Of a DNA stretch of 64,000 nucleotides, positions 32,593 to 34,385 are shown piece after piece (position 1 is the first letter of the stretch; the number at the start of each line of letters is the position of its first letter). The stretch spans positions 62,001 to 126,000 of the forward strand of contig NZ_JACJSA010000019.1 in NCBI RefSeq assembly GCF_014697545.1, in the 5' to 3' direction. A program made the translations under genes and the position numbers. A model generated the notes under the pieces. That model was given only the letters and a program-made list of their open reading frames with translations, was not told where the DNA came from and searched no databases. The stretch is from Oscillatoria sp. FACHB-1407 (GTDB taxonomy: Bacteria; Cyanobacteriota; Cyanobacteriia; Elainellales; Elainellaceae).

Positions 32593-33453
32593 TTAAACAA
32601 GCGAAAGCCGGGGTGTAGTCCCGGCTCCAACAGGAATCGATCGATTAACTGCTGCGGCGATCGCCCGCAAACTCCGCACTAAATTCACCATTTCATCAAG
32701 CGAGAGAGCCTGACGCGCATCGGATACCGACTGCTCTGGAACGGGATGGCACTCCACCATCACCCCATCGGCTCCACAGGCGATCGCGGCTCTAGCCAGA
32801 TCAGCCACCAACTCCCGCTTACCAGCGGCATGGCTGGGATCAACGATCACGGGTAGATGAGTGATTTGCTTCAAGGCAACAACGGCTCCCAAGTCCAGAA
32901 CGTTGCGAGTGTAGGTGTCGAAGCTGCGAATGCCCCGCTCACAGAGAATCACGTTGGGGTTGCCGTGGCTGAGGATGTATTCTGCTGCCATCACGAACTC
33001 TTCAATCGTGGCAGCGAGTCCCCGCTTCAGGACGATCGGCTTGTTCACCTGACCCAATGCCTTTAGCAGGTCAAAGTTTTGCATGTTGCGGCTTCCCACC
33101 TGCAACACATCCGCGTGCGCCATGACTTCCTCAATTTGAGAAATGGCCATGACTTCCGTAATCACGGGTACGCTGTATTGCTTGCGAATCGAGCTGAGAA
33201 TTTGCAATCCCTCTAAGCCCATGCCCTGGAAGTCGTAAGGTGAGGTGCGGGGTTTGTAAACTCCCCCTCGTAATGCTTGAACTGGAGCGATCGCCAACTG
33301 ACTGGCAACCGCTTCCATCTGAGCCTGACTCTCAACGGAGCAAGGTCCACCCACGATCAGGAGGTTTTCGCCCCCCACCGTTACCTGTTCAGACAGGTGG
33401 ATCACGGTCGTTTGCTGAGTGTCAGTTTTGAGAGCGAGTTTAGCCTTTTGCAC
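32593..33453 (-). CDS. aroF: 3-deoxy-7-phosphoheptulonate (DAHP) synthase, type I beta (KDOPS-like)
   Basis: Catalyses the first step of the shikimate pathway, joining phosphoenolpyruvate and erythrose 4-phosphate. Signatures are [15 protein letters not shown] (about 32-46), [18 protein letters not shown] (about 60-77), [37 protein letters not shown] and [17 protein letters not shown]. The start is a GTG at 33453, fixed by AAAGGAG six bases upstream; the longer frame to 33522 runs through the attenuator and is not coding. With this start the protein is 286 residues and the catalytic barrel begins almost at once, so the N-terminal ferredoxin-like regulatory domain known from Thermotoga-type enzymes is missing. 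That suggests weak or no allosteric feedback. Upstream are two tandem aromatic-codon attenuators. Confidence 0.95.
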
Positions 33454-33521
33454 AAGAATCTCCTTTGGAATTGAGTTGTAGACGGTGTATGAAGGAAATG
33501 AAACAGGCGAGAGGTTTGACA

Positions 33522-33554
33522 TTAAAAAACCCGGTTCCTTTTAGGCTCCGGGTT
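33522..33554 (-). terminator. attenuator 2 terminator of aroF
   Basis: On the minus strand AACCCGG (33548-33554) pairs with CCGGGTT (33528-33534), with a smaller CCT/AGG inner stem, followed by TTTTTT. It lies 68 bases before the aroF start codon. Its 5' arm also belongs to ACCCGGAG (33546-33553), which is the exact complement of CTCCGGGT (33580-33587) in the end of leader peptide 2, so terminator and antiterminator are mutually exclusive. Confidence 0.88.
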
Positions 33555-33577
33555 CTCTAAGAGATTGCATGACGAAG

Positions 33578-33643
33578 TCACCCGGAGTAGTTCCTGGTCC
33601 AAAAAAAGTAAAAGCTAAAGCTGAACTGGGATTGGGTGAACAT
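33578..33643 (-). CDS. aromatic-rich leader peptide 2 of aroF
   Basis: A 21-residue open frame beginning MFTQSQFSFSFYFFW and ending TRNYSG. It has six Phe, two Tyr and one Trp. An AGGA lies seven bases before the ATG. The last codons (Ser-Gly-stop) form the antiterminator arm CTCCGGGT. A ribosome stalled on the Phe/Tyr/Trp run would leave this arm free to pair with ACCCGGAG and prevent the terminator; a ribosome reaching the stop codon would cover it and let the terminator form. This is the arrangement of classical pheL or trpL attenuators. The frame is also open upstream as far as an ATG near 33730, but the ribosome binding site supports the short form. Confidence 0.87.
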   Translation of the reverse strand: MFTQSQFSFSFYFFWTRNYSG

Positions 33644-33683
33644 GGTCATTTCCTGAGACTGATCTTCTGAAATAGGGCTAGAT

Positions 33684-33715
33684 AAAACAAAAACCGCAGA
33701 GTGTGTTCTGCGGTT
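33684..33715 (-). terminator. attenuator 1 terminator of aroF
   Basis: On the minus strand AACCGCAGA (33707-33715) pairs with TCTGCGGTT (33692-33700) around a six-base loop, followed by TTTTTGTTTT. The 5' arm overlaps GGTGAACC (33712-33719), the partner of GGTTCACC (33751-33758) inside leader peptide 1, giving the competing antiterminator. Confidence 0.88.
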
Positions 33716-33742
33716 CACCTGAGGTTCCATGACAAGCTGGAC

Positions 33743-33799
33743 TCACCCCCGGTGAACCTGTCTAAACCAAAAATAAAAGTAGGACGTGGAGCAATACAT
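33743..33799 (-). CDS. aromatic-rich leader peptide 1 of aroF
   Basis: An 18-residue open frame MYCSTSYFYFWFRQVHRG. Seven of 18 residues are aromatic (three Tyr, three Phe, one Trp), six of them consecutive. Its codons for Gln-Val-His contain the antiterminator arm GGTTCACC (33751-33758). The stop codon is 28 bases upstream of the terminator 1 stem. No strong Shine-Dalgarno sequence is visible, only a weak AAGA. A plausible promoter lies further upstream on the minus strand, with TTGACG (complement of 33874-33879) or TTGATA (complement of 33854-33859) as the -35 box. Its close structural match to leader 2 is the main evidence that it is real. Confidence 0.83.
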   Translation of the reverse strand: MYCSTSYFYFWFRQVHRG

Positions 33800-33938
33800 A
33801 AATCTTGCGCGGAACTTTTGCGGTTTTTGCGATTCCTAACTTGTTAACAACCGTATCAAGGATTGCAAAGGAACGTCAAGTACCCGCGTGGGGGAAATGG
33901 GTCAGTGGGCAGTGGTCAGTGGGCAGTGGTCAATAGTT

Positions 33939-34038
33939 ATACCGATTTAATGTTTGATTGTGGCAGATCCCTGGGTAGGGGCGTTTCGCGAAACGCCCTT
34001 ACGGAATCATGTGCAGCGAAGCCAATTCAAATTGGTAT
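33939..34038. mobile_element. MITE-like element, family A, copy 2
   Basis: 100 bases, ends ATACCGATTT and AAATTGGTAT, with central GGGCGTTTCGCGAAACGCCC. It is the reverse complement of 18693-18792 apart from four substitutions. It lies upstream of the aroF leader, about 60 bases from the candidate promoter, and is flanked by heptamer repeats. Confidence 0.82.
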
Positions 34039-34073
34039 TAGTAGTCAGTGGTCAGTGGTTAAGGGTCAGTAGT

Positions 34074-34240
34074 TAACGTCAGTTCGGTTTAAGAGCCCGG
34101 CGAATGAATTCGCGGCTACTAGAGCGAAGTCCGCCGATGAGGACTACGGAAAATCAAGGTTTGACGAACTGACGCAGGTCGGTTTTGCTCCTAATAGCGG
34201 CGGTTAAAAACGCTGAAATCCTTATCCCGAATTCACGTTA
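34074..34240. mobile_element. MITE-like element, family B, copy 2
   Basis: 167 bases, inverted relative to copy 1, from TAACGTCAGTTCGG to CCGAATTCACGTTA. Both outer ends carry TA. Heptamer repeats flank it on both sides (34041-34073 and 34241-34285), suggesting insertion into a heptamer array. The 850-base stretch between aroF's leader and pyrD holds only these repeats and no gene. Confidence 0.82.
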
Positions 34241-34285
34241 GTTAATGGTTAATGGTCAGTGGTTAATGGTTAACAGTCAGTACAG
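34241..34285. repeat. heptamer repeats flanking a MITE
   Basis: GTTAATG and GTCAGTG heptamers continue here from 34041-34073 on the far side of the family B element. Confidence 0.7.
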
Positions 34286-34385
34286 CGATTCTCACTTTCC
34301 CGCTCTCCCATGCTCCTACTCCTACTTCCCCGATTCCTCCCCTGACTCCCTGACTCCTCTAATCCTTTTACTCCTCTACGCCCAC

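Follow-up and report, generated by a model that had tools for sequence, protein, structure and literature searches.

Predicted tandem leader-peptide attenuators for aromatic amino acids upstream of a short DAHP synthase gene in cyanobacteria

Introduction

The classical ribosome-mediated attenuators are the trpL and pheL leaders and the multivalent ilvGMEDA leader of E. coli and Salmonella. Leaders of a related kind have been proposed in front of genes for DAHP synthase, the enzyme that opens the aromatic amino-acid pathway. In the parts of the two sources that were available, aroF of Corynebacterium glutamicum is preceded by an aromatic leader peptide (PMC4046766), and the uORFC-13-1 motif lies as an aromatic leader 5' of aroF in Acholeplasma (PMC8632094); attenuation was proposed for both, each as a single unit. 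Two short ORFs in one leader, mgtM and mgtP, each within a transcription attenuator, are found in the Salmonella mgtCBR leader, where their signals differ (ATP and proline) and the operon serves Mg2+ transport and virulence (PMC3641672). For cyanobacteria, we found no earlier aromatic attenuator in the literature, with subscription journals mostly outside the search; a first-pass annotation, too, knew of no tandem aromatic attenuator described in this group. Here we analyze the aroF leader in a 64-kb stretch of DNA from Oscillatoria sp. FACHB-1407 (hereafter the window), in which that annotation had proposed two attenuators in series.

Results

Architecture of the aroF leader

The minus strand carried every element listed by the first-pass annotation, at the site that it had given, and the final codons of each peptide were exactly complementary to a stretch overlapping the following terminator, as it had claimed (GGTTCACC/GGTGAACC and CTCCGGGT/ACCCGGAG). 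We identified the following parts in the window:

33850 to 33879, minus strand: promoter-like sequence, recognized by locus comparison, with TTGACG (33879-33874), an 18-nt spacer ending in TGA (extended -10) and TACGGT (33855-33850)
33743 to 33799, minus strand: LP1, the ORF of leader peptide 1 (MYCSTSYFYFWFRQVHRG), with the regulatory codons Tyr-Phe-Tyr-Phe-Trp-Phe
33751 to 33758, minus strand: 5' arm of antiterminator 1 (GGTTCACC), within the final LP1 codons, supported by covariation
33712 to 33719, minus strand: 3' arm of antiterminator 1 (GGTGAACC), common to terminator 1, supported by covariation
33684 to 33715, minus strand: terminator 1, AACCGCAGA/TCTGCGGTT (33715-33707/33700-33692) and a T-run to about 33684, supported by covariation
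33578 to 33649, minus strand: LP2, the ORF of leader peptide 2 ((MT)MFTQSQFSFSFYFFWTRNYSG), with conserved reading frame and aromatic codons
33580 to 33587, minus strand: 5' arm of antiterminator 2 (CTCCGGGT), in the final LP2 codons and the first base of the stop codon, supported by covariation
33546 to 33553, minus strand: 3' arm of antiterminator 2 (ACCCGGAG), common to terminator 2, supported by covariation
33524 to 33554, minus strand: terminator 2, AACCCGG/CCGGGTT (33554-33548/33534-33528) and six T to 33524, supported by covariation
32593 to 33453, minus strand: aroF, encoding a type I-beta DAHP synthase of 286 aa (PF00793, E 5e-79), with a GTG start at 33453 and the ribosome-binding site AAAGGAG just 5' of it

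LP2 could start either at 33643 (MFTQSQFSFSFYFFWTRNYSG) or two codons upstream at 33649 (MTMFTQ...), and ends at 33578. On the minus strand, the interval between pyrD and the aroF promoter (window 33920-34300) also has stretches of degenerate, short repeat units resembling ACTGACCACTGACCATTAACC.

A scan of both strands of the 64-kb window for aromatic-rich short ORFs followed by a terminator returned LP1 as its sole match (LP2 was not picked up under these strict settings), and 20 Markov shuffles returned none. None of 200 shuffles folded as well as the leader region (z -2.9). We regard conservation of the sequence in related genomes as the decisive evidence for a leader.

Conservation of both leader peptides across aroF loci

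By searching with one genome per species, we obtained 80 cyanobacterial loci with a homologous aroF, among which the 78 with at least 300 nt upstream (counted by script, window included) were examined. Both leader peptides and both terminators were found in 77 of these 78 loci, 75 by script and two by eye (L015, where LP1 has four aromatic codons, and L080, where the LP2 stop codon is lost). In a Microcoleus contig (L034, positions 1-400), attenuator 1 has been replaced by what resembles the end of a small insertion element, which also disrupts LP2.

Counted back from the stop, aromatic codons occupy positions -8 to -12 of LP1 (76 loci), and positions -7 to -10 and -13 of LP2 (75 loci), in 96-100% of cases. 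The order of the aromatic residues varies, with 28 patterns in LP1 and 32 in LP2 over the same loci, while Phe and Trp are present in every LP1 and LP2 and Tyr in 74/76 and 74/75, respectively; such freedom of order with Phe, Trp and almost always Tyr retained is what would be expected of charged-tRNA sensing. Phe codons in the leaders were TTT 452 times and TTC 31 times; the corresponding counts in four window genes were 33 and 12. The N-terminal halves of both peptides are variable across loci, and the final codons GTTCAC (LP1) and TCCGGG (LP2) are conserved at the nucleotide level because pairing demands those bases. That LP1 and LP2 are translated is inferred from the conserved frame and amino acids.

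Covariation of the alternative hairpins

In antiterminator 1, 98.3% of the alignment cells were paired and 4/8 pairs showed double changes, with a score matched by none of 500 shuffles; in terminator 1, 97.2% of cells were paired and 5/9 pairs showed double changes. The corresponding pairing was 94.8% for antiterminator 2 and 92.4% for terminator 2, both with covariation scores above 500/500 shuffles, while the count of double-change pairs in attenuator 2 was not above that of the shuffles. For both antiterminators and both terminators, no shuffle of 500 equaled the observed score or percentage paired, and shifting the partner by one to three columns led to a sharp drop in pairing in all cases. 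The codon arm, the shared arm and the terminator arm changed jointly in several species, for example at L029 and at L191, where a three-way change has produced the antiterminator GGTTCATCTGA/TCAGATGAACC and the terminator GAACCGTGGA/TCCACGGTTT. Since the shuffles ignore relatedness, we treat these counts as support and not as probabilities.

In both units a terminator lies between leader ORF and aroF, as a ribosome-mediated attenuator requires. The first-pass annotation had suggested comparing other cyanobacterial aroF leaders, and this comparison bears it out, with the aromatic codons and both stems conserved, and covarying, in dozens of genera. Given that many cyanobacteria and some non-photosynthetic relatives of theirs have kept the double switch, it is very probably a genuine sensor of starvation with two stages.

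A single conserved promoter motif

A TTGACN box with TAnnnT 16-19 nt downstream was present 5' of LP1 in 72/76 loci, compared with 4% of shuffled sequences, and the same motif was absent between the two attenuators in all 74 stretches (0/74). A generic promoter scan of the window leader gave no match because the -10 box is weak; it was the locus comparison that revealed the motif. With the conserved promoter found only upstream of LP1 and none between the units, the sequence evidence indicates that both attenuators most likely act on the same transcript.

Predicted folding as a function of ribosome position

A ribosome was modeled at four positions, namely the first, middle and last aromatic codons and the stop codon, with 13 nt masked from the A-site codon, and the RNA 3' of it was folded. 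The readouts were pairing at the terminator base and folding of a shortened transcript, before the 3' arm of the terminator exists; an average over all terminator pairs did not discriminate, since terminator 1 stays paired in its upper half in both states. Mean pairing of antiterminator 1 was 0.97 with the ribosome on the first aromatic codon, 0.94 on the middle one, 0.43 on the last and 0 at the stop codon, where the base of terminator 1 was paired at 0.98. For antiterminator 2 these values were 0.92, 0.92, 0.82 and 0, and terminator 2 was paired at 0.96 with the ribosome at the stop. The spacing is consistent with the stall model: the antiterminator arm ends no more than a few nt from the stop codon, and in attenuator 1 the last aromatic codon precedes the arm by a median of 5 nt and the first by 19.5 nt (9 nt and 30 nt, respectively, in attenuator 2).

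Without a ribosome, antiterminator 1 forms at 0.97 and attenuator 2 is mixed (0.60). Termination at attenuator 1 would therefore need a ribosome that completes LP1, and since no separate protective hairpin was detected in attenuator 1, untranslated RNA is predicted to read through, unlike in trpL. The first-pass annotation had invoked the logic of trpL and pheL, and the modeled folding agrees with it in that stalling leads to the antiterminator and arrival at the stop codon to the terminator; the four-segment layout of E. coli trpL, in which a protective 1:2 hairpin ends untranslated transcripts, is not met. A mutually exclusive antiterminator that depends on ribosome position is supported by covariation and modeled folding, in silico only. 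In many species, the window included, terminator 2 is more stable than its antiterminator at equilibrium, so antitermination in attenuator 2 must be kinetic, through the order of folding during transcription.

Association with a short DAHP synthase

In the aroF product, the match to NCBIfam PRK08673 begins only at profile position 68. Its alignment to the T. maritima enzyme (1rzm) started no earlier than residue 75, whereas its alignments to the short enzymes 1vs1 and 1zco (which we take to be those of Aeropyrum and Pyrococcus, respectively) ran over almost the full length; on these grounds the product lacks the N-terminal regulatory domain, as the first-pass annotation had stated, and an enzyme without allostery is inferred. 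The same genome encodes one other type I DAHP synthase, of the AroG (I-alpha) kind by sequence (G000:C21:27939-28817); the part of its upstream region that was inspected shows no evident aromatic leader with terminator. No type II DAHP synthase was found in the Oscillatoria sp. FACHB-1407 genome. Because of this second, AroG-like enzyme, attenuation is not the sole possible control of the pathway.

We scanned 386 genomes from the phylum with covariance models of attenuator 1 (R1) and attenuator 2 (R2). R1 matched in 38 genomes and R2 in 36, once each, with none in the remaining genomes, though the filters were strict and divergent leaders could escape. Of the 38 genomes with a short aroF (at least 410 bits), 37 have an intact copy and one, G382, a split copy. 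Both units accompanied the short aroF in 36 of these 38 genomes; G116 has attenuator 1 only and G143 only the second type, recognized by eye, so the tandem is not indispensable. Across the 386 genomes the elements occurred only with a short, domain-less DAHP synthase gene or its remnant, which meets the expectation that such a leader precede a gene of the matching pathway. None of 20 long DAHP synthase genes, whose products carry 68-122 residues before the matched domain, had a credible aromatic leader. That the attenuators substitute for the missing allosteric domain is an inference, and the elements track the domain-less enzyme almost perfectly.

In G030 (L143; G030:C48:74038-74143 and downstream), attenuator 1 is cut inside its terminator, which is thereby lost, and is followed directly by a decayed aroF. 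An aroF-independent regulator or second target was considered here and ruled out, as the aroF remnant in the DNA points to decay; judged from the sequence, leader and gene are being lost together. In G382 (L144:1965-7816; G382:C1:3949000-3959000), an element of 5,836 bp interrupts the short aroF behind codon ~77; it has a perfect 16-bp direct repeat (TACGCTTTCCAGGGAA) at its flanks, encodes a tyrosine recombinase (PF00589) and leaves the tandem leader intact. This element resembles the excisable elements of heterocyst genes, and an excision element, whether programmed or former, would be an unusual find in a gene of the shikimate pathway.

In a second class, loci with a short aroF of family f43 carry attenuator 1 in ten cases and both units in four (L184, L188, L190 and L191), with different sequences and the same logic. 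When the two classes were aligned together, double changes appeared in 6/8 pairs of antiterminator 1 (0/500 shuffles) and in 5/9 pairs of terminator 1. The nearest relative of the f43 enzymes, at 79% identity, is the enzyme of L036, which was deposited as Candidatus Obscuribacter and has both units. Common descent from before the split of the classes and transfer of gene and leader together are both possible origins of the tandem in the two classes. Families f41 and f47, also of the second class, have single aromatic leaders at some loci, which are possibly independent or ancestral. At L174-L180 (f41 and f47), a leader and a terminator precede the short aroF, and the peptide C-termini (for example MNRNTNTYFYFYFFSRACRSCED) are unrelated to those of the cyanobacterial units.

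Discussion

The above analyses suggest a mechanism in which transcription would start ~50 nt 5' of LP1 and pass through two ribosome-mediated attenuators in series before reaching aroF. When a leader peptide is fully translated, the ribosome at the stop codon would mask the 5' arm of the antiterminator, the terminator would fold, and RNA polymerase would leave; termination in vivo is inferred. During a shortage of charged tRNA-Phe, -Tyr or -Trp, the ribosome would halt on the aromatic codons ~5-20 nt upstream of the 5' arm, which would then be free to pair with the shared arm and block the terminator, with transcription-translation coupling in cyanobacteria being assumed and the response to charged tRNA inferred. 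Since the polymerase must clear both points, the read-through probabilities are inferred to multiply, and the benefit of two units may accordingly lie in low basal aroF expression together with a steeper response to shortage of any aromatic amino acid. We are highly confident that aroF is controlled by two tandem ribosome-mediated attenuators sensing Phe/Tyr/Trp tRNA charging, while there are no transcript, ribosome-profiling or reporter data.

Stalling could instead be caused by the nascent peptide itself, in a TnaC-like manner, with the peptide sequence halting the ribosome on free aromatic amino acids or another ligand and not on scarcity of charged tRNA. Arrest peptides require fixed residues at fixed positions. 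The core YFYFWF is indeed common in attenuator 1 (exact in 24/76), but the residue order permutes through the 28 and 32 patterns described above with the three aromatic kinds kept, and conservation at the C-terminus falls on the residues whose nucleotides are needed for pairing, which makes this explanation very improbable in our assessment.

We give still less credence to the short ORFs being functional small proteins or reinitiation enhancers of aroF translation, with incidental terminators. While short leader genes can boost translation in many bacteria, the distance peak associated with this is not seen in cyanobacteria (PMC4833913). In the window, ~125 nt separate the end of LP2 from aroF. 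The peptides lack conservation in their N-terminal halves, and the terminators would hardly be incidental when both they and the mutually exclusive pairings show conservation with covariation. A terminator/antiterminator architecture in front of an aromatic-pathway gene would also suit a riboswitch or T-box with an aromatic amino acid or uncharged tRNA as its direct ligand, the ORFs being there by chance. However, an Rfam scan of 33300-34300 gave no family, T-box included, at threshold or with a meaningful score, no conserved structured domain was found besides the two alternative hairpins, and conservation covers the reading frames, the start codons and the aromatic codons; of the alternatives considered, this one appears the most remote. 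Control by two serial attenuators that sense tRNA charging remains our preferred explanation.

A broader interpretation, on which we find the balance even, is that the double attenuator is ancient and phylum-wide, dates from before or near the split between photosynthetic and Obscuribacter-like lineages (or moved with aroF), and provides the only feedback control of the domain-less DAHP synthase, as a multiplicative gate for one signal in place of allostery. The system makes it testable why two serial switches of the same logic are kept (lower leak, steeper response) and whether control at the RNA level stands in for a lost allosteric domain. Natural material for such comparisons is readily available in the single-attenuator variants G116 and G143 and in the long enzymes that have the domain and no attenuators. 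The leader also implies tight transcription-translation coupling in the phylum and is relevant to engineering of the cyanobacterial shikimate pathway. As far as the literature that we found extends, it would be the first cyanobacterial leader-peptide attenuator for aromatic amino acids and the first deeply conserved serial pair of attenuators reading one kind of signal.

The cyanobacterial leader shares with trpL, pheL and ilvGMEDA a run of end-product codons, an alternative antiterminator with an intrinsic terminator, and read-through upon stalling, and differs from them in having two complete attenuators in series with all three aromatic amino acids in each. Compared with trpL, its layout has two structures, with the antiterminator arm inside the final peptide codons. 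With Corynebacterium and Acholeplasma it has in common an aromatic leader before a DAHP synthase gene, whereas those leaders, so far as the accessible portions of their descriptions extend, are single attenuators in other phyla with no tandem described. In contrast to mgtCBR, the cyanobacterial units share one class of signal, and many families have conserved the tandem. Ribosome-mediated attenuation as a mechanism is known, while a deeply conserved, same-signal tandem tied to a domain-less DAHP synthase appears to be new.
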